Below, piece by piece: positions 1,022 to 60,046 of a stretch of DNA of 64,000 nucleotides. Source of the stretch: Allolobophora icterica (Eukaryota; Annelida; Clitellata; Crassiclitellata; Lumbricidae); NCBI GenBank assembly GCA_963556255.1, contig OY744605.1:3254187-3318186 (forward strand), read 5' to 3'. Both the position numbers and the translations under genes were made by a program. How positions within the stretch are numbered: position 1 is the stretch's first letter; each line of letters begins with the position of its first letter. A model generated the notes under the pieces. The model ran no database searches. It was not told the DNA's origin and saw only the letters and a list, made by a program, of their open reading frames with translations.

Positions 1022-3711
1022 CCTTCGCCATACGCGAACAAAAAAACTACGTCTTCTATGCTTGGGGGTCCAAATGACCCCCAAGGTATACCTGTTCCTG
1101 GGCATGGAATTTGATAATTTTTGTTTCGTTTCTAATGTTTTATGGGTCAGGGAATTCATTGCAGCTACTGCCAAATGCGTGACCTTCACGGATGACCTTG
1201 AAATTCAAGGTCACATGATTTTTCAGGTGTATCTCTGCTTCTTCGCATGCTATCTTGAATATTTGTTTTCAGAAATTCAAGGCCACGTGATTATGCACGT
1301 GACCTTACCTATCTCAACTGGAACAGCCATTTTTGTTTGTTTATATGTTGTAAGTCTACAAAATTTCGAAAAATAACACAGACAAAGCAGTTTCAGTCTT
1401 ATATTCGTGAATAGACAATGGCTAAAAGAATAACAGGTGCAGCTGCCAAAGAAATCATTGGAGCCTGGATAGCGAATGACTATTTCGATGAAGAAGCTGT
1501 CGACGACTTCCACGATGAATCGGAAGAGGACGAAGTGGATAACGTCGAGGTAGAGGAAAGCACGGATGAAGACGAACAGGACGTGGAGGACATTGCTCCA
1601 GCAACAGACGATATTATGTTGTCGAAAGACGGATTGACACGTTGGTCGAAAAAAGTTCCTGCTAAGCAAGGTAGATGAGCTGCTGCTGATATTGTTAGAA
1701 ATGTACCCGGCCCTGCTACAAATGTTATCCTTGAGAAGGCTTCAGATGCTTTTGCGCTATTCTTTGAAGATGCTGTTCTTGAAAAAATTCTGGAATGGAC
1801 AAATCAGGAAGCGGTGAGGGTGTGTGCTGAGAGGGGTTATAAGAAAACTTTCAAACTATTCACTCTCTCAGAATTGAAAGCATTCTTGGGATTGTTATTT
1901 GTTATCAGTGTTACCAAAGGCAGGAATGAATCTATAAACCAACTGTGGGGTGAGGAGTGGGGACGACCGTTTCTCCGAGCAACTATGTCAAAGAGCAGAT
2001 TTGAAGGCTTTCTTCAATTCATTCGTTTTGACGATAAGGAAAGCAGAGCTGAAAGACGTGTGACAGATAAATTGGCTGCAATAAGAGAAGTAACTGACGT
2101 GTTCTCAAACAGATGTAAAGAGAAATACATTCCCTCGGAACAAGTTACCGTTGACGAAATGCTGTCGGCCTATCGTGGCAAGTGCCCATTCAGGGTTTAT
2201 ATCCCGTCGAAACCCGCTAAATACGGAATAAAAATTTGGATTATTGCCGATGTACCCACAGGATATTGCACGTATTTTCAAGTTTACACAGGGAAGATAA
2301 ACAATGTTCCTGAAAAAGGGCAAGGTGTGAGAGTTGTAAAAGATTTGTGCACCCATTTGTATGGCTCAGGACGGAATGTGACAACGGACAACTTCTTCAT
2401 CGATGTTACTCTAGCTCAACATCTGTTAGATAATTCTCTGACCCTAGTCGGAACATTGAGAAAGTCGAAAGGATGCATACCTAGAGAAATGCTACCAAAT
2501 GCTAAACGAGAATTGTTGTCATCAGTGTTTGGATTTTCCGATAAGATGACAATAGTGTCATACGTGCCAAAGAAAAATAAGGCTGTCACCTTATTGTCAA
2601 CTGCTCATCACGACAATGTGATCTCGTCCGAATGTCACAAGAAACCAGAGGTCATCCTTACCTACAATAGCACTAAAGGTGCAGTTGACACTTTGGACAA
2701 AATGTGCAGACAATATACAGTGAAACGTTCTACCAGACGATGGCCATTGACACTTTTCTTCACCCTTCTGGATATAGCTGCACATAACGCATCCGTGATT
2801 TGGTTTCATCAACATCCTGAATGGGTGGATTCTGCAAACACTAATCAGAAGGACAGAAGGAGAGCATTCATATTGGAAATGGGGAAAAGTATGTGTCTTC
2901 CATGGATCGACAGCAGAAGAAGCACGCCCTGCGTAAGCGGCAGAACATCGATAAAGCGGGCTTTGGAATACGTGAATCTGCCTGTTCCTACGACAACACA
3001 GAACGACACAGTCATCACTCCTCAGAGAGGACGATGTCACATGTGCGATCGAAAGAATGACACCAAGACGAAGCACAGATGCAGCACGTGTGGTCAATTT
3101 GTTTGTGGTAACCATTCCACACAATTATTTACCTGTACCGAATGTAGTTAGATACACTGGCAACAAGTCATAAACAAATTATGAGAAGTGAAACGATGTA
3201 ACATAAGATGTAACATAACATATTCCAGTTGTGTTTTGTTTATATTTTGTTGAGTTCCTTGTACCAAATAACCATAGAAACCAAAAAACTTCGTTGTTCT
3301 AACAGGTATAGTAGCAGAGATAGGTATGGTTATGTAAAAAATCATGTGACCTTGAATTTCAAGGTCTTCCGTCAAGGTCAGGCATTTGTCAGTAGCTGGA
3401 GTGAATTCCCTGACCCCTAAAACATTGGAAACAAAAAAATAATCTTCAAGATACCTTTCGTAGAAGCAGAGATACACCTCATTGTATGGACACTAATGAT
3501 ATGGACATGAATTTCACTCTAAGATCTCACCAAAATGACGTCACAGCGTCAGAACTAAGCGTCAACGTATGACGTCACTCATACCATTTTGACAAGGAGG
3601 AATTTTTAGGAAAAGTCACCAAAGGAAACTTTTTGGTGCCCACATTTTAGAAAGTTACAGATGAAAATATACCCCTGGGGGTCTATTTGACCCCCAAACG
3701 TGTGGCGAAGG
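1022..3711 (+). mobile_element. piggyBac DNA transposon, complete ends
   Basis: The 2690-bp element is bounded by TTAA on both sides. Its terminal inverted repeats begin CCTTCGCCATACG on the left and, read inward, CCTTCGCCACACG on the right. Nineteen-bp palindromes of the form GGGGGTC..GACCCCC lie at 1064-1082 and 3677-3695, at unequal distances from the two ends as in other piggyBac elements. Longer subterminal blocks (about 1119-1290 and 3310-3480) are inverted copies of each other but with their sub-blocks in a different order. The interior holds one transposase frame with a single stop. The element landed in a LINE fragment and is the younger of the two. Confidence 0.93.
1418..3151 (+). 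pseudogene. piggyBac transposase with one in-frame stop
   Basis: The frame from ATG 1418 to TAG 3149-3151 is 577 codons, broken only by a TGA at 1676-1678 (codon 87). The N-terminus is very acidic (about residues 24-65), as in many piggyBac proteins. The catalytic aspartates are visible at residues 246 (VTVDEM), 324 (TTDNFF) and 424/427 (GAVDTLDK). These spacings of 78, 100 and 3 almost equal those of the classical enzyme (268, 346, 447, 450). The C-terminal cysteine-rich domain (about 540-577, starting CHMCDRK) that binds the inverted repeats is intact. TGA follows AGA and is consistent with a CGA-to-TGA transition. A product could start at the downstream Met at 1814 but would lack the N-terminal part. 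Recently inactivated transposase is the likeliest reading; a domesticated use is not suggested by anything seen. Confidence 0.92.
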
Positions 3712-27837: not shown

Positions 27838-28040
27838 CTTGTGCATTACATTGGTTAGAGCGCTCGTCTTGTAACCCAGAGAGTACGGGATCGAGCCTCT
27901 GCTCAGCTGGTTACTGTGTAGGGACCTTGAGCAAGTCCTTCACTCACAATTGCTCAGCGCCATTGATGTTTTAACTCCCCTTCCACGTCTGAACTGTGGA
28001 AGGGGAGCAATATCGATGACAGTTGTATTGTATTGTGTTG
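27838..28040 (+). mobile_element. tRNA-derived SINE, family C
   Basis: Head TGGTTAGAGCGCTCGTCTTG with box B GATCGAGCC, body TTGAGCAAGTCCTTCACTCA and CAATTGCTCAGCGCCAT, and a tail ending CAGTTGTATTGTATTG. The tail phrase is the seed of the minisatellite at 51855. Confidence 0.8.
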
Positions 28041-29934: not shown

Positions 29935-30366
29935 TGTCGTGGCCTACGCGGGTGCATGCATCAAGGGAAGAAAACCGACGCGTCAACAAGCTTGTTTACA
30001 ACGCACGGAAAATTCTGCAGCAAGCTGTCAACATTAGTTCGGTGCATGCAACAAGGATATACGTGTTCAGTAGGACTTTCCAGGGAAAAGTACAGTGACG
30101 TCACAGAACGTTCTGGAATCCGGGAGAACTCTATATAAGATAGACCTGATGTACATTGGGGGCCTTTTGACGAAGATTTGTAAACGTTGAAACATTGATC
30201 GTATGACGTTCAATCGAGACCAGCCAACCTGTGTGCTGTCTACGATTGTGATATTTGATAGACGAGTTGACTTACTTTACACTTAATCGACTTTATTTTT
30301 AATTAAAGATCTTTTAATAGTTCCTTCGTTGGTTCGTCGTTGCGATCGAAGGAGTCGACCGCGACA
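29935..30366 (+). repeat. 5' LTR
   Basis: Starts TGTCGTGG and ends CCGCGACA (TG..CA). Differs from the 3' LTR at C/T near 29943 and at two further C/T positions near 30144-30154. Contains a promoter cluster (30073-30138) and an ATTAAA poly(A)-type signal at about 30302. Confidence 0.95.
30073..30138 (+). promoter_or_regulatory. LTR promoter: kB-like, CRE, heat-shock element, TATA
   Basis: In order: GGACTTTCC (30073-30081, kB-like); TGACGTCA (30096-30103, palindromic CRE); GAA-TTC-GAA triplets with 2-bp gaps at 30106-30118, a perfect three-unit heat-shock element; and TATATAA (30132-30138). Spacing to the TATA box is short and typical of an inducible promoter. The motifs are seen; response to stress or cAMP is inferred. 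The same cluster is in the 3' LTR about 6.1 kb on. Confidence 0.65.
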
Positions 30367-30890
30367 TTATTGGTGGCAGCGGCGGGATCATCGGTGTTGG
30401 ATCCGGTGAAGAAGACGCGAGCCGGCGGAGGAAGGAGTCAACCCGGAGGATCAAGAGACGGTCTGTTCCAGACAGCGAGCGGATCGAGACGCCTTTCTAC
30501 CGTGGGAGACGGGTGAATCGGCATACGACAGTCGGACGGACGAAGTGCGTCGTTCGGCTGAGACAGCAGAAGACAGCAGTCAACATACGGGTAAGATCCT
30601 AGGTGTTGTCGTGGCTGAGAAGGAGAAAAGAGAGTGGAGTTGCAGCCGAGTGGGAGGCAGCCATTGTTTCTCTTTCAATATCTGCTGATTATTTCTTTGA
30701 AATTTGATCCATTGTTGTGATCGAGGCCAGACTTGCGTGAGCTTGTATAGTTTTTGCGTACTTGGCGAGTGTACTTCTTTGGATACTGCATAGTTGCACT
30801 TTGGGTTGTGGAATTTTCCTTTTGTGTGGCGGGTTTGCCGCGTGGTGTCTGTTTTTTTTGTTGATTGTTGTTGACTGACTGTTTGTTAAA
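30367..30890 (+). other. Primer-binding region and 5' leader of the retrotransposon
   Basis: TTAT then TGGTGGCAGCGGCGGGAT follows the LTR directly. TGG close to the LTR end is the usual start of a tRNA primer-binding site (complement of CCA). I could not name the tRNA. The rest is an untranslated leader of about 500 bases. Confidence 0.7.
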
Positions 30891-33800
30891 ATGGAAGCGT
30901 TGACAACAGAGATGCAAGCGAATATTCGCAAAATGTCGTCTGAGCGCCTTAGGGTGTATCTTGTGAAGGCAGGAAGGGACGAAGATGATGTTATGTCATG
31001 GGATCGAAATCAATTAATGGAAGAATGGGCCATGGAGATTGGAAAAGAGGAAGAGGAATTTAAGGGTAGTCCAATATCTCCAACAGGAGTGGATTACGAG
31101 CTGCAGAAGCGCCGTCTGGAGTTCGAAATCCGTAAATATGAAGAACAAAGGGAGGAACGGAAGGAGAAGGAAGAAAGGGAGGAAAAGAGGAGAGAAGAAC
31201 AAAAGAAAGAACAAAGGGAGAAGGAAGAAAGAGAAAGGGAGGAACGGAAGGAGAAGGAAGAAAGAGAAAGGGAGGAACGGAAGGAGAAGGAAGAAAGAGA
31301 AAGGGAGGAACGGAAGGAGAAGGAAGAAAGAGAAAGGGAGGAACGGAAGGAGAAGGAAGAAAGAGAAAGGGAGGAACGGAAGGAGAAGGAAGAAAGAGAG
31401 AGGGAGGAACGGAAGGAGAAGGAAGAAAGGGAGGAAAAGAGGAGAGAGGAAGAAAAGAAGGAACGGAAAGAGAAAGAAGAAAGGGAAAAGAAGGAACGGA
31501 AAGAGAAAGAAGAAAGGGAGAGGAAGGAAAAGCAGGAAGAACGAAATGTTAGAGATTCTTTAGCAAGTCGTACTAAGCGTTATAGTGATGCCCTCAAGAA
31601 TATTCTTTGGAAATTTCCTTCCGACCCTATAGAAATTCCAGGTTTCTTTGATCACTTGGATGGTTTGTTTAATGTGTATGAGGTGGATGAAGATGTTAGA
31701 GCAAAATTATTGCTAGCCATTTTAAGTGAAAGAGCTAAGGCATTAACCATGCGCCTTACTGAGGCACAGCTCCATGACTACAAATTCCTGAAGGAGTTTT
31801 TGCTAAGGGAGTTTAAGATAAGCCCTTCAAATCTTAGAGCCCGATTTTGGTCGTTGCACAAAGCATCGGACGAATCATTTACGATCTATTCATCCAAATT
31901 GCGTGTGGCTCTTATGTATTATTTGAAAAGTAGAAAGATAACTGATGAGTTTGATAAACTTGTAAGTTTATTGGTTGCGGATCGGCTTAAGGAGTCCTTG
32001 TCGAAGGCTTGTTTAGATTATATCTTGGCCCAAGAAAAAGAGGAGTGGTTGAGCTGTGAAGACATAGCTAATGCGGCTGACATTTATGTAGCGTCGCATG
32101 ATGGTGGGAATGACTTAGTATGCCGTAGTCATCCGACACCGAAGTATAACAATTGGACGAGAGGTCAACCACATGTTCAAGTCAATAACCAGACAGCTCA
32201 ACCCAAGTCTCCCAAACCGGAAATAAGGGGTGAAGCCAAGATAGGTGCGAGGGTGTCTCAGGAGGAGGCCAAGGTAAAGGGTCTCTGTTTCCTATGTCAT
32301 CAGAAGGGTCATATGGCAAGGGAGTGCCAGACCAAACCAAGTTCTAAAAAGGTGAGTACTTGTATATCTGGGAACCCAACTGAAGAAGTGACCGACTTAT
32401 TTGTTGAGAAGGTCAACGTGTTGCATGAGATACCTGAACAGGTAAAGCAAGGGAATTTATTGGATAATTCTAAACCAATAGGGTTGGAAACTGTTGTAAG
32501 GGTATACGAGAATAGTATTGATGGATTACACGAGAGGTCGTATATCAATGTACAGATTGAAGATCTCCCTTCTCAGCCAGCATTATCTGATTCAGGAGCA
32601 GAAATTTGTTGTATTGATAAGAAATTAATTGAGTCACTAAACTTACCCGTGATTAAACGGATTAATATAATTGGTTTTCAGGGAGAAGGATGTAAGGCAG
32701 ATGTAGTATACCTACAAATGAAATTAGCTAATTCAATGGAAGGAACGACAAACATTGCGCCATCTTTGTGCGTCATGTTCGCTGCAGTCCCTGAACTAAA
32801 TGAACGGGTTATTTTGACACCCCATGTTGTGGACCTATTAAGGGATAGTTCGCAATATGTAGTGATGGTAGCTGGCGTAGATCGATGTGTACAAATAAAT
32901 AAAGGGGCAGAAGAAGATAACTTAGAAGTTAATATCGAGAAAAGTAACAGCAACGAATCCTTGCCGTCAGAAGTGAATGAATATTCTCAGGAGCAACTAG
33001 TTGATGATTCAGATAATTTTCTTGATGTTGAGTCAACAGAGTTCAAGTCTGATGAGGGAGTAGCGAATAATGATACTTTATTGCGTGAGCAACAGAATTG
33101 TCACAATCTTATATCTTGCTGGCAACAAGCGAGACAGAATAAAAATAATTTCTTTATAGATAATAACCTCCTGTACCACAAAGGGGAAATTATGGGACAT
33201 AAGGTTAATCAATTATGTTTACCGGAAGATAGAATCGAGGTTGTCTTGCGAGTAGCACACGATGCCCCATGTGCTGGGCACATGGCTTTTAAGGCAACGA
33301 GAGCCAGGATCAAATTAAACTTTTGGTTTCCAAGAATGGATGAGAGGATTCGCGAATATTGTGCGTCTTGTCAAATTTGTCAACTAAGAACTCCAGTTAA
33401 AGTGGCAGATCGAGTCCCGATCACTCCTATTCCGAGGGCGGATGAACTCTGTTTTAACCATCTAAATATGGATTGTATTGGCCCTATGGTAGTGACTGGA
33501 GAATCCAACAAATCGAAACCCCAGTACAATTATGCTTTGGTTCTGGTGGACAAATTTTCTCGTTGGCCGATGGCGTATCCTCTTAGATCGCTGAATGCAA
33601 AGGGAGTTTGTGAAGCGCTGTTGCAAGTTTTTACAACTTTTTCTATTCCAAGGATCATCAGTTCTGATTGTGGTACCAACTTTACCAGTCGTTTGACGAA
33701 AGAATTCTTGCGGCGAATGGGTTGTAGTCCCAGATTTAATACCCCTGGACATCCTGAGGCAGCTGGATTGGTTGAAAGATGCAACCAAAGCTTGAAAACC

Positions 33801-35840
33801 ATGATCTTTAAGCTTGCTCAATCTGATCCTCGTGGATGGCACCAATTGTTACCGTTTGTTCTGTGGAGCCTTAGAGAAAAACCTTCAGGCACGACTCATA
33901 TTTCGCCATTCACTATGGTTTATGGAACTCTTCCTCGGGGTCCACTTAGTGTGTTGAAGGAATCGTGGGCTGGCGAACGAAAAGTACCTCTTAACTTAGG
34001 TAAATCACCCGAAGAGTATCTCCAATCACTGAAGGAAAACCTCGAATTCGCGAAAGTTTATGCAGATTACTATAGTGATATAGAAACCAAGCGGTATGCA
34101 GATTATTATAACTTGCGTAGTACTGACAGAAAATACGAAGTTGGAGATAAAGTAGCAGTATTAGCACCAGATTTTGGTAGTTCTAAATTTTATAGTCGAT
34201 GGCAAGGACCTGCTACCGTAGTCAAGGTTAAATCCCCATATTCTTATATAGTAGAAATAGAGGGAAAACAAAGACATTTACACGCAAATAAGATCAAGCG
34301 ATACCATGAACGACTCGAACAAGCGATGATCAATAGCTGTTCAGTAATTGTTGATCAAGATGAAGAATTTGGTATAGTAGAGGTTGTAGATCAGGAAGAA
34401 CGTGAACAAATAAGCCCGAGTAAGCGAATTGATCCTCTGATTATAGCGCATCTTTCGCAAGAGGAACAGAAGCAACTTTTTGAAGTTTTGGATCGGCACA
34501 CGGCAGTATTTGTGGATAAACCTGGGTATTGTCCAGTATTAGAACATGAAATTAAGATAACTCATGATTTCACTCCTAAGCGTTTAAGGGCATATAAAGT
34601 ACCTGAGCTACTTAAACCTGAAGTACAACGCCAGATAGAAGAAATGTTGGCATTAGACATCATTCGACCATCGAAAAGTGAAATGGCCAGTCCGGTAGTT
34701 TGCGTTTTAAAGGGACCCAAAGGTCAAAATGGCGTTCGATTGGCAATTGATTATCGCCATGTTAACAAATATTCTCTAGGTGATTGTTACCCGACCCCAG
34801 ACATTGCTGACGTCTTACAAAAGGTGGGACGGGCAAAGTTTATTAGTGTTTTCGACGCGAAATCGGGGTATTGGCAAATTCCAGTTCGGAAAGAACATCG
34901 ATGGCTTACGGCATTCGTATGTGATGCAGGACTTTTTGAGTTCACAAGGATGCCGTTTGGACTCAAGTCCGCTAGCAATACCTTTATTCGTGCTATGACC
35001 CAAGTTTTACATCCAGTGCGAAGTTTTACCGAACCATTCGTCGATGATATGGCAGTGGTTTCAATGAATTGGAATGACCATTTAGAACATCTAGAGAAAT
35101 TCTTGCAAACTATTGAGGAAGCAGGACTCACTTTGAATTTAAGAAAATGTAATTTTGCACAAAACAAAATAAAGTTTGTTGGCCATATAGTAGGGTCAGG
35201 TTGTATTGAACCTGATCCAGGTAAGATCGCTACGATCAATGATATCCATCCTCCAACAACAAAGAAAGACGTTAGAAAGGTTATGGGTTTTTTCAGTTAC
35301 TTTCGAAATTTTATACCTGCTTTAGCTGAAAAAGCACGGGTAATAACTGATTTGACACGAGATAACATACCTACGAAGGTGCCTTGGGAGCAAAAGCATC
35401 AAGAAGCACTAGATAAGTTAAAGGATGATCTCAGTAAAGCTACACAGTTGCATACCATTGATTTCACTAAGGAATTTGGTTTAAGTGTTGACGCAAGTGC
35501 CACCGCGGTCGGGTGTTGCTTGTTTCAGTGGACCGAAGAAGGTCAAGAAAAACCAATTGCTTTTGCTAGTCTTAAACTTACAGATACACAGATGCATTGG
35601 TCTACAATTGAGAGAGAGGCTTTCGCAGTAATTTGGGCACTTAAACGATTCAAGTCATGGATATTCTTATCAAAGATAATCATTTATTCAGATCATAATC
35701 CTTTGTCTTATCTCACAGATGCAAGCCCTAAGAGTGCGAAACTGACTCGTTGGGCGTTAGCATTGCAAGAGTTTGACGTGGACTTTCGATATCGTCCTGG
35801 ACGTCAGAACACGGTGGCTGATTTCCTCTCTCGGTTGTGA
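30891..35840 (+). CDS. Gag-Pol polyprotein (gag-PR-INT-RT-RH)
   Basis: A single 1649-aa frame without stops. Gag: residues about 68-215 form a Glu/Arg/Lys-rich coiled coil, including six copies of an 11-residue KEKEEREREER unit (33-bp coding minisatellite); a capsid-like helical part follows (about 220-400); a CCHC knuckle CFLCHQKGHMAREC lies near 465. Protease: DSGAE near 566. Integrase: His/Cys zinc region ending CASCQICQ (about 785-830), then the DD35E triad (MDCIG near 860, SSDCG near 924, GLVERCN near 960) and a C-terminal SH3-like part near 1085-1140. Reverse transcriptase: LAIDYRHVNKYS near 1285, FVDD near 1383. RNase H: LSVDASATAVG near 1531, REAFAV, YSDHNPL, ending in ADFLSRL at the stop. 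Integrase before RT is the striking point. It is probably processed by its own protease; how gag excess is achieved without a frameshift is not visible. Confidence 0.95.
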   Translation: MEALTTEMQANIRKMSSERLRVYLVKAGRDEDDVMSWDRNQLMEEWAMEIGKEEEEFKGSPISPTGVDYELQKRRLEFEIRKYEEQREERKEKEEREEKRREEQKKEQREKEEREREERKEKEEREREERKEKEEREREERKEKEEREREERKEKEEREREERKEKEEREREERKEKEEREEKRREEEKKERKEKEEREKKERKEKEERERKEKQEERNVRDSLASRTKRYSDALKNILWKFPSDPIEIPGFFDHLDGLFNVYEVDEDVRAKLLLAILSERAKALTMRLTEAQLHDYKFLKEFLLREFKISPSNLRARFWSLHKASDESFTIYSSKLRVALMYYLKSRKITDEFDKLVSLLVADRLKESLSKACLDYILAQEKEEWLSCEDIANAADIYVASHDGGNDLVCRSHPTPKYNNWTRGQPHVQVNNQTAQPKSPKPEIRGEAKIGARVSQEEAKVKGLCFLCHQKGHMARECQTKPSSKKVSTCISGNPTEEVTDLFVEKVNVLHEIPEQVKQGNLLDNSKPIGLETVVRVYENSIDGLHERSYINVQIEDLPSQPALSDSGAEICCIDKKLIESLNLPVIKRINIIGFQGEGCKADVVYLQMKLANSMEGTTNIAPSLCVMFAAVPELNERVILTPHVVDLLRDSSQYVVMVAGVDRCVQINKGAEEDNLEVNIEKSNSNESLPSEVNEYSQEQLVDDSDNFLDVESTEFKSDEGVANNDTLLREQQNCHNLISCWQQARQNKNNFFIDNNLLYHKGEIMGHKVNQLCLPEDRIEVVLRVAHDAPCAGHMAFKATRARIKLNFWFPRMDERIREYCASCQICQLRTPVKVADRVPITPIPRADELCFNHLNMDCIGPMVVTGESNKSKPQYNYALVLVDKFSRWPMAYPLRSLNAKGVCEALLQVFTTFSIPRIISSDCGTNFTSRLTKEFLRRMGCSPRFNTPGHPEAAGLVERCNQSLKTMIFKLAQSDPRGWHQLLPFVLWSLREKPSGTTHISPFTMVYGTLPRGPLSVLKESWAGERKVPLNLGKSPEEYLQSLKENLEFAKVYADYYSDIETKRYADYYNLRSTDRKYEVGDKVAVLAPDFGSSKFYSRWQGPATVVKVKSPYSYIVEIEGKQRHLHANKIKRYHERLEQAMINSCSVIVDQDEEFGIVEVVDQEEREQISPSKRIDPLIIAHLSQEEQKQLFEVLDRHTAVFVDKPGYCPVLEHEIKITHDFTPKRLRAYKVPELLKPEVQRQIEEMLALDIIRPSKSEMASPVVCVLKGPKGQNGVRLAIDYRHVNKYSLGDCYPTPDIADVLQKVGRAKFISVFDAKSGYWQIPVRKEHRWLTAFVCDAGLFEFTRMPFGLKSASNTFIRAMTQVLHPVRSFTEPFVDDMAVVSMNWNDHLEHLEKFLQTIEEAGLTLNLRKCNFAQNKIKFVGHIVGSGCIEPDPGKIATINDIHPPTTKKDVRKVMGFFSYFRNFIPALAEKARVITDLTRDNIPTKVPWEQKHQEALDKLKDDLSKATQLHTIDFTKEFGLSVDASATAVGCCLFQWTEEGQEKPIAFASLKLTDTQMHWSTIEREAFAVIWALKRFKSWIFLSKIIIYSDHNPLSYLTDASPKSAKLTRWALALQEFDVDFRYRPGRQNTVADFLSRL
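31217..31420 (+). repeat. 33-bp coding minisatellite in gag
   Basis: Six in-frame copies of a purine-only unit (GAGAAGGAAGAAAGAGAAAG then GGAGGAACGGAAG) encoding an 11-residue coiled-coil repeat. Purine-only sense strand extends over about 430 bases. Confidence 0.9.
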
Positions 35841-35846
35841 CTCGGA

Positions 35847-36035
35847 TGGTGAAGGGGGGAAATGGCCCGACACACAAGGATCGAGCCCGCAAATTGTGTG
35901 GATAAGTTGACTAACTGATGTGTTTTGTTTTGGTTGTATATGCTGTATCGAGATGGAGTCTGGAGGCCCGGCTTGATCGTGATGACCCGTTCGGGATGGT
36001 GCTGAAGACGTGTCATCATCTGAGGGCGGAGGGAA
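35847..36035 (+). other. Polypurine tracts before 3' LTR
   Basis: GAGGGCGGAGGGAA at 36022-36035 abuts the 3' LTR and is the likely plus-strand primer. A second purine run, GGTGAAGGGGGGAAATGG, lies just after the pol stop (about 35847-35864) and may be an extra priming site or chance. Confidence 0.7.
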
Positions 36036-36467
36036 TGTCGTGGTCTACGCGGGTGCATGCATCAAGGGAAGAAAACCGACGCGTCAACAAGCTTGTTTAC
36101 AACGCACGGAAAATTCTGCAGCAAGCTGTCAACATTAGTTCGGTGCATGCAACAAGGATATACGTGTTCAGTAGGACTTTCCAGGGAAAAGTACAGTGAC
36201 GTCACAGAACGTTCTGGAATCCGGGAGAACTCTATATAAGATAGATCTGATGTATATTGGGGGCCTTTTGACGAAGATTTGTAAACGTTGAAACATTGAT
36301 CGTATGACGTTCAATCGAGACCAGCCAACCTGTGTGCTGTCTACGATTGTGATATTTGATAGACGAGTTGACTTACTTTACACTTAATCGACTTTATTTT
36401 TAATTAAAGATCTTTTAATAGTTCCTTCGTTGGTTCGTCGTTGCGATCGAAGGAGTCGACCGCGACA
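36036..36467 (+). repeat. 3' LTR
   Basis: 432 bp, TGTCGTGG to CCGCGACA; same promoter cluster as the 5' LTR (CRE and heat-shock element about 36197-36219, TATATAA about 36233). It could drive transcription into the flanking DNA. CATTC follows at 36468-36472. Confidence 0.95.
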
Positions 36468-40804: not shown

Positions 40805-41065
40805 TAAGGGGTGTGCTCGATAGTGTAGTGGTTAACATGCTGGACTGTCAATCGAGAAGTCGGGGGTTCAACTCCCCGCTAGGGCAGAAATTTGGTTGGA
40901 AGTTTCTGCGCCCCTAGCCAACTCAACTATAATGGGTACACTGACCGTACGCTGTCGGTGGGAAGATGAGACGGCGAGGGAGAGGACTGGCCACCCGTCC
41001 TCATAGCCGAAGCTTAGACAATGAACGTAGCAACACTTCGTAACCGTGACTGCTTTTCTATACTC
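40805..41065 (+). mobile_element. tRNA-derived SINE, family B, plus
   Basis: Head GTGCTCGATAGTGTAGTGGT (box A) and GGGGGTTCAACTCCCC (box B), body GCAGAAATTTGGTTGG, ACACTGACCGTACGCTGTCG and GAGAGGACTGGCCACCCGTC. The 3' block has diverged. The ~65-bp units follow directly in the expected order. Confidence 0.88.
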
Positions 41066-51854: not shown

Positions 51855-52074
51855 AGCTGTATTGTATCAAATTTCAGTAGTATTGTATTGTATCAAATTA
51901 CAGTTGTATTGTATTGTATCGTATCAAAGTACAGTTGTATTGTATCAAATTACAGTAGTATTGTATTGTTTCAAATTACAGTTGTATTGTATCACATTAC
52001 AGTTGTATTGTATTGTATCAAATTACAGTTGTATTGTATCAAATTACAATTGTATTGTATTGTATCAAATTGCA
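51855..52074. repeat. SINE-tail-derived minisatellite abutting GATA exon 1
   Basis: About nine units of TATTGTATCAAATTACAGTT in 21- and 26-bp versions. The seed phrase (TATCAAATACAGTTGTATTG) is the tail of the SINE at 53120-53235 and 27838. Every unit ends in TTACAG, an acceptor-like trinucleotide, and the last variant, ATTGCAG at 52069-52075, directly precedes the GATA coding exon. Confidence 0.9.
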
Positions 52075-52110
52075 GCCTTCTTTTTGACGTCGCCTCATCG
52101 CACCACCACG

Positions 52111-52771
52111 ATGCAGGGCTACGAGTTCTCTGTCTCCGCAGCCGCCGCATCCCGGCTTCCTTACCAACCCTACCAGATCCTCGACCCATCGGAAGACTGG
52201 TCATCACGACCCTCCTACATCCACCCTGGTGCCGCCGCGGGGCGACTCTACTTCCCCTTCGTCGGTGATTACGTCCCACCACCCTTCGTCGATAGCAACG
52301 GAGGGGTTAGGGTAGTATCCAACCCCAGGGAATGCGACATAACGGATATCAGCAACAACTACGTCACACCTCACCCTCACCAAGGATACGTGCGACACCA
52401 GGGGACTCTCAGTCCACCCGTGACCCCCGCCCAGATGACGTCCTTCCACGGCCAAACCGGAAACCACTTTCCAGACTATCCGGAAGTCGCGAACGAGACG
52501 AAACTGGAGGATGTAAGCAGTACTTCCTCGCTGTCGCTAGGTGGCGCCGTCGTAACGCCAGACTCTGTAGCCGAGGCGCAGCATCAGGCAGGGCAGCAGT
52601 TCCGCGCGCAGTCGGAGAACGGTCAGTGGATGCAGAAGAGGGAGTGGCACCTGGCATCGAGTTCCGCCTTCAATCTCCATCAACATTATCAGCAGCAGCA
52701 GCAACAGATTCCATCGTACCTGACGGCGGACAGTCGCGCTAAAGAAATCATCGCATCGAATTACAACGACG
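52111..52771 (+). CDS. gata456: GATA exon 1 (N-terminal region)
   Basis: 220 codons plus one base; donor GTAGGT at 52772. The protein is rich in Tyr, Pro, Ser and Ala, with [13 protein letters not shown] and [13 protein letters not shown] near the start and a Gln run ([10 protein letters not shown]) near the end. It is the usual disordered activation region and not conserved enough to align by eye. Part of it (52346-52494) exists as an inverted copy in the following intron. Confidence 0.88.
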
Positions 52772-55700
52772 GTAGGTCTTTGGTTAGCGCTAAATAAATT
52801 TAAGATTACGTTACAATGACGTCCACTTGGCTGACCAGTGACCATCCATCAATCTGGGTTTCATTTTCTTATCTACTCTCTCCTACTTTGATTGGAATAC
52901 GGTAGCTGGATCATATAGTTGGCGACTTCCGGATAGTCGGGAAAGTGGTTTCCGGTCTGGCCGTGGAAGGACGTCATCTAGGCGGGGGTCACGGGTGGAC
53001 TTAGAGTTCCCTGGTGCCGCACGTATCCTTGGTGGGGGTGGGGTGTGACGTAGTTGTTGCTGATATAATCCATGTACATGTATATCCGCATTATAATAAC
53101 AATACTGATTAGGAATCTAGAGCAGGTACTTCACTCACAATTGCTCTGCGCCATCGATGTTCTGTCGTATGGTCGTTGTTGAACTTTTGAACTTTGGAAG
53201 TAGGGCAATATCAAATACAGTTGTATTGTATTCTTCAAATTTAATAATTTCTGAATAATATTAACAAATATATTTATTGTAATAAAACTGCTTATTAACC
53301 AATATTAAGGTTATCTGCCTTATGTTTATCATAGGCCAATTGTTATTTTGATATTAATTGAAGTGCTGCAACCATTGTCATATATCTTTGCGCCGACACT
53401 GTTATTAATTGTAAACTCTAGATTTAAAACCTGAACTGATCGATTTCTATTGCAATCTCAGTTCCTCTCTGAGGTACTTAACAGGCGCTATATCAGTCGT
53501 CTTGACCCATGTATACAAACATACAGACGACAGACAGGGACAGACAGACAGACACATATACATACATACAATCAAACATACACACACACATTCAACATAC
53601 ACACACATATACACAGTGTTGTACAGTAGCGAAGTAAAAATAATGCGTAACTGTACTTAAGTAAAAGTTTCGGTAATTTTACTTGTAAAGAAGTATCATA
53701 AAACGGAAATACTTTTACTTTCGTCGAAGTGAAATTTAATCCAGCTTTCAGTACTTTCACTTAGTTACAATTTACGTAATTTTCATTACAGTGTTCGTTA
53801 CTAAAAATTGCGCTATAACATTTCGTTAGAAAGGGCGCAGCTGAAAGAGCTAATATAAATTTGTGTACAGTATGCATGCATACAGACAAACACACATACA
53901 GATATGCATACATACATTGATTTTTGTAGCGCCTTCTATGACATTATTGAAGCCAGAAGCAAGTAGGTGTAGATCTGGAGGTATGCAGGAAGTGAGAGAG
54001 GAAGAAAAACAGATGAATAAATGTCTCGCAGCGTATAGGTCTCTTTACTTCGGGATAGCACAGAAAGTAAATTCCGGTGAGATTCCTCTCCTCTCCTCTA
54101 TTCTCCTCTCCTCTATTCTCCTCTTTCTCCTCTCCTATATTCTCCTCTATTCTCCTCTCCTCTATTTTCCTCTTAGCTCCTCTCCTCTCTCTCCTCTCGT
54201 ATACTCTCCTTCCCTAACCTGTCCTCTATATTCTCCTCTATTCTCCTCCTATATTCTCCTGTCCTCTTGTAACCTCTCCTCCTCTCCTAACCTCTCCTCT
54301 ATTCTTCTTCATTCTCCTCTCCTCTATTCTCATCTCCTCTCCTCTCTTAAGCTCTCCTCTTCTAACCTCTCCACTATTGCCCTCTCCTCCATTCTCCTCT
54401 CCTCTGTTCTCCTCTATTTTTCTCTTCTATATTCTCTCCGCTCTCCGAACATTTCCTCTATTCTCCTCTAATCTCCTGTGTTCTCCTCTCCTCTATTCTC
54501 CTCTCCTCTAACTCCCATATTGAAATCATTACCGTGGCTGCCCATCGGACAACGAAACCCAGTTTAAAATCCACCTTTCAGATAACAAGGTAATAGATTT
54601 CAACCAGGTGACCTATCTCTCTTCCTTTCTCTCCCATTACCCCGACAAAGACTGCACTCGTTCAACGGACATCTTGACTCACTCGCTCTGCTTTCCGTAC
54701 TGGAACAGCGTCGAGCGCTCGGGCGTTCTCCGTGGCTGGTCCAGAGTTTTGGACGACACTGCCCAATTCTACGCGTTCTTAATTTCTTATTCTTTGATGT
54801 TATTCATGTCTAGACTCAAGCCACTTCGTCTCTTTCAACTTGGTTTCTTATCGTAGCCTGGCTTTCATGTCTCTGATCTTTCAGATTTCGACTAATGAAG
54901 ACAAGCGCTGTTGAAAAATTTGAAACTTGAAAATAGACTATCCATATAGGCCCAACAACCTCTATAGGCTTAGCAATTTCTTTAGACCTAATCAGGGACG
55001 TCTACCCCCCCCCCCGAACTCATTGGAGCAACTTCCCCTCCCCTCCCTCCTTTCCCCTTCCCTCACCCCGTTAATAATGGCCCACACACTGACAGATCTT
55101 CCCCCTTTTCTTGGAAGGAGCATTTGCTCCAAGGTTTCCGTGGTGTAGACGCCTCTGGACCTGATAACAGTTGTATGCCTAACAACGTCTATAGCTTATT
55201 ACACTTTCTGGAGGTCTAATAACTTTTGTAGGCCTAACAACGTCTACAGATTATTACATTTTCTGTAGGCCTAATAACATTTGTAGGCTTAACAAAATCT
55301 ATAGGCTCCTAGGGCAGTGCTTCCCAAAATAGTGGTCCACGGCCCGGTGCCAGTCCGCAAATCGAGTCAAGAAACTGGACAAAAAAGACGATAGACGTTT
55401 CATGCAGTTAAATTTTTGATGTTTTCCCAACAATATCCGCTCCTTCCAATGTAACTACAATTATAATTCTTTTTACCAAATTCCAAAATTTGTTTTAAAT
55501 TCTCGTTAGTTAAATCTTATAGCTAATACATAATTTAAGGTGATAAAAAAAGAAAAATAATAACTTGGGCACCGGTCCTGCCTCAACGGGAAAATTCCTG
55601 CCGATTCGTCACACTGAAAGTAAATTCCTGCCAGTCTCACTCAAACGTTTGGGAAGCGCTGTTCTAGGGATAATTTTCAATGTAAACTTTCCTTTTTACG

Positions 55701-58700
55701 TAGCCTAAGCATAATTTTCTGCTGTAAGCTAACTTTCCCTCTGTATGCCAGCGTTTTCCGTAGGTCACAACGCTTTCAGTGGGTCGAACTGTTGTTTAAC
55801 CAATTTAATGTCGATCGATCATGCCTAAACTTCTCATTAATCCGGTTTGACTTATTACCCATTGTGACCTGACCTTTGTTTTCCTGACCTATATATCAGA
55901 TTTCGACTGGTTATCTCTGGGGTGCTCGATAGCTCAGTGGTTAGCATGTTGGACTGTCAATCGAGATGTAGAGGTTCAAATCCCACCAGGGCAGAAATTT
56001 GGTTCGAGATTTCTGCTCCACCTGAACTCCCCCCCCCCATAACCAACTCAGCTATGATGAGTACGGCGACCGTACAATATCGGTGGGCAAACCAGAGGGC
56101 GAAAAAATGACCACCCGCCCTCTAAATGCCAAGGATAAGAAAATGAAGTCGCTAACACTTCATACCCATGGCTGCCTCAGGACCAGCTTCAGGGACTGCT
56201 CTTTTTCTACGGCAGGTTCTGGGTTCTTCAGCATCTTACTTGATTGATCTCCTGTGCTTTAAGCAAAGTTGATTTAGAAGTCATATATTAGATCCTCTCG
56301 TCTTACCTTGCCTTCAGTAGTTTCCTGCTTTCTGCCTGGTATGAATTTATCTTGCGCCAGCTTTGAAGCTGGTCTCCGTGACGTGAGTTTTGTGTTGCGT
56401 TGATAAATTACCGATTCTGACGTTTACATTTACGTTCGTTTACATTTCCATCCGCAGTCACTCGTCTTAATTGCGAAAACCAAGTCGAAATGGAATTTTG
56501 CCCGAAGCTATTCATTTAATTTCTGTGGCGCCATTTAGGCCTTTAGTGCACTCACATGCGCTTGTGCCCAGGGGATATCACTGCTGAGGACATTTTGAAA
56601 AATGACATTTTTCGCGCGTAATTTTAAGTCAAAAAGCACTTAATAAGGTAAATATTTGAACCTTCAAGCAGTCAAATTATCATAATGAGCTCATTATTAA
56701 TGAGGATATCAACCTCAAGCCTCAAGGTCATAAAAAAACCATTTAATCATTTCATCATTGGTGGCGCCTGGTGGTACTAAAAAAAGGCAAAATTCACTGG
56801 TGGGGAAAAGGTAAGGACTGGAGGGGAATTTGAAAGGGCTGGTGGGGAATTTCTCCACCAGTTAACATGTTAAAAATGCCCTGCTTATGGCTGGTGGATG
56901 TAGTAAACAGGAAAATAAAGATGACAAGGAAGTGTTGAATTGGAATATAATATATTCATGTTTATTGACATGCTCACTGACAAACCGCAGTTAGTTACAT
57001 TGAAACAATCATTGAAACATGACGGTACAATTATCAAGACCATCTGAGGCTGAGTGTCCATGACCGCGTTAATCCAACAGCCTTATGAGGAAAACATACA
57101 TTACTAGGATGTTATATGGGACTGTTGCGGAAAGGTGTATACGGTTGTATACCAAAACGCGGATAGCAATTGGTTGAATAAAGAATATTCTTATCTTTGT
57201 CTAATAGAACACACGTCTTTGCAATCTGTTAGGCGCCCGCTCATTTTACAGCTACCACCCTAGGAAGTGGAAGGCTGAATCGACTTAGCGGGGGCTTACC
57301 GTACGGGGATGGAACCGCATCTTTCAAGATCTTGTGTTCTTCATGCATTGTATTACCATTCATCTATACTATTGTCTAGTATGGACAGTTGCTGTAATGC
57401 TATTAACCTATTTATCTGCCTATTACCTATTTATTTGTCTCTGTTTAGCTCTTCGCATCTTCCCTTCCATTGTTTTTTGTAGCGCCTTAATATGTGACTT
57501 TCTACGATCCTTCCATCGACACATCTGTCTCGCTCTCTCTAACTCTGTATTTTGTATTGATGCGCTGCGAATTGTGTTGCCTGTGCAACGGTTGTTTTCT
57601 ATAATCGTGTTGCCCGTGCAACGGTGTCTTTTTAAACTGTGTTGGTTGGTTGTGCAACGGTTGTCCTTTATAATTGTATTGCCTGCGTAACGGTTGTCTT
57701 TTATAACTTTTTTGTGCAACGGTTGACTTTTATAGCTTCTTAGTTGCGCAACGGTTGCTTTTGGTTGTGCAAGGGTTGTCTTTAATAACTGTGTTGGTTG
57801 TGCAAGGGTTGTCTTTTATAACGGTCGTCTTTTACAACTGTGATAATTGTGCAACGGTTGCCTTTGATAACGGTTGTCTTTAATAACAGCGTTTATTGTG
57901 CAACGGTTGTCTTTTATAACTGCGTTACAGTCAACGGTCAGCAATATCGCCCACAACTGCAGCAGCTTCAGCAACAAGAACACGATCACCATCACCATCA
58001 TCAGCAACAGTTGCTCCATCCCTACAACACGCACCAGCTTCATCAGAAGCAGCTTCAGCAGCCTCATCCCCATCACCACCACCACCTTCAGCAGCAGCAG
58101 CAACTGCATCCCAACGTCGTCCAGCATCAATGCGCCAAGTGCGGTCAGTTCCTCGGATCCGTTCCGTGGATCACAAACGAACAGGAACTGAACCATCTGC
58201 TCTGCGACCTCTGTCGATTGGAAGTGTCGTCGCTCCAGTCCTCGCTGACCGTCGCTCCTCTTCCGTCCGTTCACCTGCCCCCGCAGGGAGCTCTTCCGTC
58301 GGGGTCCCTGGCGTCGTCTCTTTCCTCGACGACCCTCTCTTCGGCTCTCAACCCTCTTCTTACACAACGACACACGTCCGCCCCAACGCCCGCCCAAAGA
58401 CCTCTCACCAGAAAGGTAAGCTGCGCTATATAATTTGTCTGTCTTTCTGTCTGTGTGTCTGTCTTTCTATCTACCTGAGTCTGTCTGTCTTCGAGTGTTT
58501 TGTTGGTCTGTGTTTTCTGTCTGAATATCTCTATCTGTCTATGTCTTGTTGTCTGTCTTGCTGTGAGTCTGTATGTCTGTATGTGAGTTTGTCGGTCTGT
58601 CTATCTATCTGTCTGTCTATGTGTCTATCTCTGAGTCTGTCTGCCTGTGAGTCTGTGTTTCTGTCTTTGTGTCTGTGAGTCTGTGTGTCTCCCTGTGTGT

Positions 58701-60046
58701 CCGTCTGTGTATCTGTCTGGAGTATGTATGTCTGCTTCAATCTGCAGTATGCCTATCTTTCTGACGTATGCCTATTTGTGTGTCTAGGGTGGAAGGAGGG
58801 CTGGTCTGATCTGTGCCAACTGCAAAACGAACTCAACGACCCTCTGGAGACGAGACTCTCACGGGGAACCAGTCTGCAACGCATGCGGCCTCTACTTCAA
58901 ACTACACAACGTACGCAACGCTTACTTACATACCTACTGAGCTAACTTACTTGCTTGCTTACTTATTTGCTTAGTTACTTACCTATTTAATTACTTACTT
59001 CATTCCTTACTTACTTGCCTACTTACTCACTTGCTTAATTACTTACTTCCTTGCTCACTTGTTTACTTTCTTACTTCCTTACTTAGTTACTTACTTGCAT
59101 TTTCCTTACTTGCTTCCTTGCTTACTTACTTACTGAGCTTACTAACTTAACTTACGTAACTTAATTTACTTAACTTTAATTACTTAGCTCAGTTACTTAG
59201 CTTATTGATTAGTTTGTTTATATATTTACTTACTTGCCTACAGAGATTGTTGAATTAGTTATTCTACGCTGGATGGGAAGCGATGAAAGGCATTAAAGGG
59301 AGGAGTTAGGAAGAGAAGGGAACGAGGAGAATGAAGGATGAGTGAATGGAAAGTAGATGAGGCAAAGGGTGAGATGGAGATGGGGTAGATTGGGTGAAAG
59401 AGGAAGAAACGCAGGGAGTGGAAAAGTAGAGGAAAGCATCCCGAGCAAAGCATTTGAGAGAAGAAGAAGGAAGTAGAGACGGGAAAGAAAGAGCTTTTAA
59501 GGGAAGGGGAGAAGGGCAGAGGGGAGGAAAGTACAGAGGAAGAAAGGGGGAAGAGGGTAATACGTTCATTCATTCATCAATTGATCCGTTCATCCATTGA
59601 TCCGCTCATTCACTTGATCCATTCATTGATCCGTTCATTCATTGATCCGTTCAATCATTGGTTCATTCATTGATCTGTTCATTCATTGATCCATTCATTG
59701 ATCCGTTCATTCGTTCATCTAATGATCCGTGCATTCATCCATTATTTTCTTTCACTCATCGTTACATTTATTCAGCGCATTTTGTGGCTTTATTTAAACT
59801 GAGGATTTTGGCGTTGAAAATGATCTTCACTCAGTAACAATCTTCGAGTGCTGTTGTACATTGCGATTACAGCTCCATAACAGTTTTCAGATGAGATTAG
59901 ATAAGACTTGGTCATAAGATTAGATAAGATTTTTGTCGTTCTCTGCCGACAGATGTCACGACCGCCGTCGATGAGAAAAGATTCGATTCAGACGAGAAAG
60001 AGAAGATCACAGCAGGGAACTCTCAAGATCCAACAGACCACAGCAG
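52111..60046 (+). CDS. gata456: GATA transcription factor, GATA4/5/6-like (3' end not found)
   Basis: Coding exons: 52111-52771, 57931-58415, 58788-58910, 59953-60046. All junctions are GT..AG and phases agree (1, 0, 0, then 1). About 454 residues are recovered. Exon 1 is a disordered activation-type region; exon 2 has His/Gln runs and a degenerate N-finger; exon 3 is a perfect C-finger ([20 protein letters not shown], then [13 protein letters not shown]); exon 4 is the basic tail ([17 protein letters not shown]). Introns before RRAGL and after KLHN are at the positions shared by animal GATA genes. The GEPVCNACG and QTRKR choices favour the 4/5/6 class, which specifies endoderm and mesoderm. 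A terminal exon must lie after 60046, probably outside or unrecognised. The start ATG has A at -3 and follows an acceptor at 52075, so a 5' untranslated exon lies upstream. Confidence 0.93.
52917..53066 (-). pseudogene. Inverted partial copy of GATA exon 1 in intron 1
   Basis: On the minus strand this matches exon 1 positions 52346-52494 over 149 bp with nine differences (94%). In the exon's frame, eight of the nine are silent third-position changes and the ninth turns a Gln codon (CAG) into TAG. Homology stops abruptly at both ends (ATATCAGC and GTCGCCAAC). The pattern implies the source was under protein-level selection for a long time before or after separation, then acquired a stop. Confidence 0.93.
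53115..53238 (+). repeat. SINE family C, 3' half
   Basis: CTTCACTCACAATTGCTCTG, CGCCATCGATGTTCTG and the tail AGGGCAATATCAAATACAGT, then TGTATTGTATTC. It lacks the tRNA-like head. In GATA intron 1. Confidence 0.8.
53240..54080. other. Intron 1 of GATA, mostly plain with CAGA/CACA tracts
   Basis: Short CAGACAGA/CATACATA tracts at 53520-53620 and 53862-53915. No exon recognised. Confidence 0.5.
54080..54515. repeat. (CTCCT)n-type pyrimidine array
   Basis: Degenerate TATTCTCCTCTCCTC repeats over about 430 bp in GATA intron 1. Confidence 0.93.
54528..54905 (+). pseudogene. LINE ORF2 C-terminal remnant
   Basis: The phrase TGGCTGCCCATCGGACAACG reads WLPIGQR, followed after a frame change by [12 protein letters not shown], the HWLP..RI.FK block of CR1/L2-like elements. 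The rest is degenerate. In GATA intron 1. Confidence 0.55.
54993..55157 (+). mobile_element. hAT-type MITE, family CAGGGGCGTCT, copy 3
   Basis: 165 bp, ends CAGGGACGTCTACC and GTGTAGACGCCTCTG; flanks GACCTAAT (54985-54992) and GACCTGAT (55158-55165) differ at one base. Same inside as copy 2 at 28125. In GATA intron 1. Confidence 0.88.
55315..55661. mobile_element. hAT-type MITE, ends CAGTGCTTCCCAAA
   Basis: 347 bp, ends CAGTGCTTCCCAAAAT and GTTTGGGAAGCGCTG. Flanks TCCTAGGG (55307-55314) and TTCTAGGG (55662-55669) differ at one base. The CAGTGCTTCCCAAA end is widespread among animal hAT elements. In GATA intron 1. Confidence 0.9.
55918..56180 (+). mobile_element. tRNA-derived SINE, family B, full length
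   Basis: Best copy of the family. Head with box A TAGCTCAGTGGTTAGCATG and box B GGTTCAAATCCCACC; body GCAGAAATTTGGTTCGAGAT and CAACTCAGCTATGATGAGTA; 3' block AAATGAAGTCGCTAACACTT and CATACCCATGGCTGCCTCAG, followed by a GGGACTGCTCTTTTTCTAC unit of the ~65-bp repeat. The stretch right after box B has no tRNA acceptor stem, so it is not a functional tRNA gene. Confidence 0.92.
56220..57555. other. Intron 1 of GATA, plain sequence
   Basis: No repeat array or exon recognised. At 56760-56880 GGTGG..GAATTTCTCCACC text forms weak inverted repeats that may be an old MITE. Confidence 0.4.
57558..57926. repeat. Minisatellite abutting GATA exon 2 acceptor
   Basis: About eleven units of TTGTGCAACGGTTGTCTTTT plus ATAACTGTG-type spacer. 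The last unit provides the pyrimidine stretch and acceptor (CTTTTATAACTGCGTTACAG, ending 57930) of exon 2. Confidence 0.93.
57931..58415 (+). CDS. gata456: GATA exon 2 (degenerate N-finger)
   Basis: Two bases completing a Val codon, then 161 codons; donor GTAAGC at 58416. It begins [15 protein letters not shown] with long His/Gln runs, then [22 protein letters not shown]. This lies where the N-terminal GATA finger belongs. The spacing is C-x2-C-x20-C-x2-C in place of x17, the Trp is kept, and CNAC has become CDLC. Zinc binding is possible; classical DNA or FOG contacts are unlikely. The exon ends RPLTRK, recalling the conserved linker RPL..K. Confidence 0.88.
58416..58787. repeat. GATA intron 2, (CTGT)n microsatellite
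   Basis: Almost wholly CTGTCTGT/CTATCT repeats between 58430 and 58720. Confidence 0.9.
58788..58910 (+). CDS. gata456: GATA exon 3 (C-terminal zinc finger)
   Basis: 41 codons, phase 0 at both ends, after TCTAG and before GTACGC. It encodes GGRRAGLI then C-x2-C-x17-C-N-A-C with the LWRR and GLYFKLHN blocks. All four Cys ligands are present. This finger binds WGATAR sites. Confidence 0.96.
58911..59755. repeat. GATA intron 3: (CTTA)n, purine tract, GATCCGTTCATTC repeats
   Basis: CTTACTTA repeats to about 59250, a GGAAGA-rich purine strand at 59270-59560, then about ten copies of a CATTGATCCGTTCATT unit to 59745. Confidence 0.9.
59893..59932 (+). promoter_or_regulatory. Paired GATA sites in intron 3
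   Basis: ATTAGATAAGA occurs at 59898-59908 and again at 59921-59931, both full AGATAAG sites about 23 bp apart and just upstream of exon 4. Possible autoregulatory intronic element or a chance duplication. Confidence 0.4.
59953..60046 (+). CDS. gata456: GATA exon 4 (basic tail)
   Basis: 31 codons plus one base, after GACAG. Starts [18 protein letters not shown], the C-terminal basic extension that contacts the minor groove. The donor GTAACG at 60047 is acceptable. If it is not used, the frame runs on to a TGA at 60172-60174 and the protein would end there. Confidence 0.88.

Follow-up and report, generated by a model that had tools for sequence, protein, structure and literature searches.

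A short inverted copy of GATA exon 1 in the first intron of the same gene differs from the exon almost only at silent positions

How does a gene come to carry, within its own first intron, an inverted piece of its first exon that differs from that exon almost only at silent positions? The question is raised by a GATA gene of the animal type on the forward strand of the window, by which we mean the whole stretch of 64,000 nucleotides from Allolobophora icterica analysed here (C4:3254187-3318186 of assembly G000, where contig C4 has a length of 87 Mb). Four exons were modelled from open frames and splice signals. Exon 1 (52111..52771, +) opens with the ATG at 52111 and ends in phase 1 before a GT donor at 52772, exon 2 (57931..58415, +) encodes a degenerate first finger (CAKC...CDLC), exon 3 (58788..58910, +) encodes the canonical C-terminal GATA finger, and exon 4 (59953..60046, +) adds the basic tail that follows the finger. 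When the four-exon product was compared with the PDB, it matched GATA-3 with an E value of 9.9e-34 through the canonical finger of exon 3, and the GATA identity of the gene, as judged from its sequence, is real. The degenerate first finger lies at 58120-58215 and is to be set against the canonical second one; exon 2 gave no Pfam match at E 0.1 and is absent from the list returned by the genome-wide GATA profile search. That profile search of G000 produced 32 finger matches. Those scoring above 45 bits number 27 and fall, by our own count, into about 17 places, the present gene included, and two fingers lie close together in 10 of the 17. Examples of such GATA finger places are C1:67.26 Mb, C2:60.10 and 89.46 Mb, and C19:35.26-35.58 Mb.

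The duplicated segment of exon 1 (52346..52494, +) forms the left arm of an inverted repeat, and its right arm is the inverted copy in intron 1 (52918..53066, -). In an ungapped alignment of the left arm with the reverse complement of the right arm 140 of 149 positions are identical (94%) and nine differ, which bears out the observation in the sequence-only reading that 149 bp of exon 1 recur inverted with nine differences; of the ends that it gave to the copy, 53066 stands, and the start has to be moved from 52917 to 52918. The spacer between the arms is 423 bp long and takes in the remainder of exon 1 together with its splice donor. In a BLAST self-comparison of the window the arm pair has an E value of 6.7e-60, and the pair is therefore far beyond chance, while a repeat finder extended the block to 156 nt at 92% identity. 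It is clear that we are dealing with an inverse-complement copy of nearby sequence with sharp ends, as is the mark of a local inverted duplication. Running antisense to the gene, and with a stop on its own strand, the copy is non-coding and not translatable as a piece of a GATA protein from the transcript of this gene.

The surroundings of the copy differ on its two sides. The left flank (52773..52917, +) is intron sequence with a single place in the 1.12-Gb genome, and it therefore gives no sign of a mobile carrier to the left of the copy. To the right there are 36 bp of other sequence, followed by the remnant of a dispersed repeat (53103..53232, +), which matches 27912-28034 at 75%, has shorter matches besides and is probably a SINE to judge from these matches. 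No target-site duplication was seen by eye at the edges of the copy. A mobile element as carrier of the fragment was accordingly lowered among the candidates, given the single-place left flank and the missing target-site duplication; carriage at the front of the right-hand repeat, whose remnant begins 36 bp beyond the copy, would still be conceivable. A GTT is common to one edge of the block and the other edge is without clear microhomology, both edges being judged without an empty site for comparison.

The genome was then the place to look for a source other than the neighbouring exon, and G000 was searched in its 328 contigs (1,117,693,669 bases in total). A DNA search with the 149-bp segment found two places, the exon and the copy, and a protein search with exon 1, followed up to E 10, found exon 1 itself and the copy (residues 79-129, with one stop). 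Both searches scored the best candidates and covered most but not all of the genome, so that the evidence for just two places of the exon 1 segment is strong but not absolute; the pair as seen in G000 is the window's own sequence and gives no independent support for the pair. With two places found, the neighbouring sequence qualifies as the source. The sequence-only reading had looked to a second GATA locus with the same exon, and it had counted the lack of a second locus or haplotype with the same silent variants against its own proposal. No second locus was found by the DNA or the protein search of the genome, and as far as the locus is concerned this part of the counter-evidence is now at hand, exon and copy alone being returned.

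Relatives of exon 1 outside this genome were sought as well. Among 5.8 billion proteins there were 1,179 candidates and none at E 0.001; pattern matches numbered 52 in prokaryote contigs and 25 in viral ones, and none was confirmed; and the four-exon protein led to 1,052 proteins, where the exon 1 part was unmatched at E <=1 among the 120 matches listed. Exon 1 is thus without an outgroup, and consequently the changes are not assignable to the exon arm or the copy arm. Codon preference was tried as a pointer to the older arm, and the codon counts of the gene, judged by eye, clearly favour neither.

Of the nine differences, read in the frame set by the ATG at 52111, eight (52371, 52377, 52395, 52404, 52410, 52455, 52473 and 52491) are synonymous third-position changes, and the ninth, at 52432, turns the CAG of exon codon 52432-52434 into a TAG, which stands in frame in the copy (52978..52980, -) and is found both in the alignment and in the genome protein search. 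The eight silent changes and the single stop first noted by eye are confirmed in this frame. Only three bases separate the difference at 52491 from the edge of the block, and it may reflect the junction itself; if it is left out, seven silent changes and one stop in 145 bp remain. Silent difference amounts to 8 in 33.7 silent sites, or 0.24 per site (0.29 when corrected), an imprecise estimate with eight changes, and non-silent difference to 0.009 per non-silent site.

For quantification of this bias we used a decay model in which a single copy is taken from this exon and left unconstrained, and in which the exon arm accepts non-silent changes at one tenth of the rate and no stops; transition bias, AT bias and CpG rate were varied in twelve settings. 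The model expects 48 to 65% non-silent changes, and one in nine was observed. Over the twelve settings, an outcome with one or no non-silent change among the nine has a probability of 0.0013 to 0.027, which becomes 0.003 to 0.046 when the edge difference at 52491 is dropped. If both sequences diverge under coding constraint, the corresponding probability is 0.31 to 0.65. The outcome of exactly one such change is favoured 16- to 183-fold under coding constraint over simple decay, a ratio that counts the TAG change merely as non-silent and leaves the step of a later stop uncharged. Since the constrained model allows no stop, the TAG must under this model arise in the copy after copying. These values support the proposal that the pattern is one of divergence under coding constraint more than of pseudogene decay; because the case was picked by eye in a long scan, we take the support for constraint as sizeable, yet not overwhelming.

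An exon-fragment pseudogene is a non-coding partial copy with a stop, in which decay should bring an excess of non-silent changes. The present copy is likewise partial, non-coding and interrupted by a stop, but it lacks that excess, and a decaying pseudogene fragment fits poorly, as the differences are not spread without regard to the code (one non-silent in nine, a small sample). The copy has 11 CpGs, as many as the exon segment (11), which suggests that it is not old as non-coding DNA.

Our tentative answer, for which we would claim somewhat less than an even chance, is a short local inverted duplication of the template-switch type that recorded a diverged allele of the same exon and is now non-coding. 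Technically, about 145-156 bp of exon 1 would have been copied inversely into intron 1 at a site approximately 420 bp further downstream. The size, distance and orientation of the block make a template switch during replication or repair the most likely mechanism, which we infer, given that the microhomology amounts to a GTT at a single edge read without an empty site. The copy appears to be young as non-coding DNA and yet a quarter of the silent sites have changed, which would mean that the source diverged while it was translated. Either the switch would have used the homologous chromosome as template, or a later recombination in the 423-bp spacer would have joined the copy to another allele of the exon; in both cases the TAG would have come last. 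The allelic reading is ranked first because it needs no missing gene, and the allelic step is kept tentative because, for alleles, a silent difference of 0.24 per site is large. In a published panel the most polymorphic species, a tunicate, has a diversity of 1.5%, and the same account mentions a congener with extremely high diversity, for which it gives no figure (PMC3623758). The silent divergence found here is far above the 1.5% of the tunicate, and this counts against the allelic reading. The duplication event itself is ordinary, and the size of the silent divergence is its one unexplained feature.

How ordinary such events may be was viewed in a sample of 303,357 bases (26 sequences) of the same genome, in which pairs of at least 60 bp, with 80% identity and no more than 1.5 kb apart, were counted. 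There were 11 close inverted pairs, the present one included, and 41 direct pairs. The sample is non-random, as 18 of the 26 sequences are from contig C4, including the window, and five adjoin the window. The ends of several inverted pairs resemble transposon terminal repeats, and the true rate of inverted duplication is therefore lower than this count.

If the allele is left out of the argument, a simpler account can be given, which we regard as somewhat unlikely. A local inverted duplication would have been taken from this very exon allele, changes in the exon would have been filtered to silent ones, changes in the copy would have been random, and the case would have been noticed as an extreme one, its silent bias being luck. 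A priori this is the commonest kind of event, the sample is only nine differences or, with the milder P values given above, eight without the edge one, and the pattern was picked out by a reader on the lookout for anything unusual. It is the decay model that stands in the way, with P values of 0.001-0.027 in all twelve settings for the full set of nine, and with about half or more of the differences expected to be non-silent where one in nine was seen.

The size of the silent divergence would be easier to understand if the source was a GATA paralogue carrying this exon, one that was later lost or is absent from the assembly, because 0.24 per silent site fits a paralogue better than an allele. 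GATA genes are numerous here, as the 32 finger matches described above attest. We nevertheless hold a paralogous source to be unlikely, as a third place with the exon appeared neither in the DNA search nor in the protein search up to E 10, and as the gene would need to have been lost at roughly the same time as the insertion occurred. The original suggestion of a translated source, be it a paralogue or a haplotype, is thus supported in part: divergence under coding constraint is likely, and the paralogue was not found by the DNA and protein searches.

The arms also invite an explanation at the level of RNA. The RNA of 52330-53080 is predicted to fold at -426.6 kcal/mol, compared with a mean of -249.8 for 20 shuffled sequences (z -20), and the predicted stem pairs exon 1 with the copy, which is long enough to qualify as the stem of a hairpin-RNA gene, as far as prediction goes. 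By this folding the unspliced RNA would form a strong hairpin with the splice donor between its arms. The copy could then have been selected as RNA, pairing with exon 1 in the unspliced transcript, which might be diced, edited or slowed in splicing, and the copy would stay put while the exon changes silently. Any inverted repeat would fold in this way, however, and the differences within the predicted stem are plain mismatches in six of nine cases and G-U pairs in three. The six plain mismatches indicate that pairing is not being kept, selection for pairing was rejected or at least lowered as a candidate for this reason, and we consider such selection very unlikely. A combined version strikes us as hardly probable. 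In it the fragment would preserve, inside the intron of a developmental regulator, an ancient allele of that gene which had diverged far at silent sites (0.24 per site) but acquired no amino-acid replacement, merely a stop, and it would also provide a hairpin for silencing or editing the living allele, allele by allele.

An inversion between the arms that made the copy the coding one was rejected by reasoning, because the spacer would flip, taking along the remainder of exon 1 and its donor, and the gene would be broken. An assembly artefact, either a chimera or the join of two haplotypes that the sequence-only reading offered as an alternative, is the least probable of all: chimeras and artificial structural variants are known in amplified long-read libraries, at least in the material described in PMC11226609, but the copy differs from the exon by 6%, it is bounded by single-place intron sequence on the left and by the repeat remnant beyond 36 bp on the right, a fold-back chimera would continue as a mirror image and never come back to other sequence, and no third copy was found in the 328 contigs.

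The preferred reading, a template-switch-like inverted duplication from a diverged allele, has relatives among described mutations. Template-switch mutations at a smaller scale are reported in great apes (PMC7954356), and template switches are also reported for RNA hairpins (PMC8794818); as presented in these two sources, a nearby stretch is inversely copied in a single event and a hairpin can result, as may be the case here. In the present case about 149 bp were copied over about 420 bp, and the copied stretch comes from a coding exon, with differences that are almost only silent. Duplications of the MMBIR type in fly lines, of which 1 in 17 was inverted (PMC11226609), resemble the present copy in being inverted and in having at most short microhomology at the edges, while the blocks given there have medians of 3.7 and 4.5 kb and the present copy, whose edges are read without an empty site, is much smaller. 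From what is set out in PMC10317233, fly hairpin-RNA genes are proposed to derive from their targets and plant miRNA genes were born by inverted duplication of targets, and both share with this locus an inverted gene piece able to pair with the RNA of the gene itself. In contrast to them, the copy lies inside the intron of its own target, and any hairpin RNA from it is a prediction. A literature search on intronic antisense exon copies brought nothing to the point.

Small inverted exon copies of this kind amount to a built-in clock, as the balance between silent and non-silent changes in either arm could tell a source in the same allele from one in another allele or in a paralogue since lost. 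Should the allelic reading be true, such fragments would be fossils of old alleles, and should the hairpin be used, the locus would be a self-targeting RNA gene still very early in its making. The present case is mainly an instructive single case.

Several other elements of the window deserve mention. A tandem array at 51858-52075, with a unit of 47 bp or 26 bp (TTGTATTGTATCAAATTACAG-like), ends 35 bp upstream of the GATA start codon and may be an expanded repeat tail, as 51815-51874 matches 53180-53242 at 81%. ARAGORN and Rfam point to a tRNA-Asp-like sequence at 40812-40887, which lies amid dispersed repeats and may be the head of a SINE. An LTR retrotransposon occupies 29935-36467 with 432-bp LTRs that are 99.3% identical, and its one open frame of 1,649 aa has the integrase domains preceding the reverse transcriptase. 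This frame has relatives in JGI metagenome contigs with 93% identity over 87% of its length; another relative, at 65%, carries the label of an archaeal MAG, which is probably contamination. A transposase frame of 445 aa at 1814-3151 (Pfam DDE_Tnp_1_7), which we take to be piggyBac-like, lies between 113-bp inverted repeats (1111-1223 and 3337-3449) that are 88% identical.
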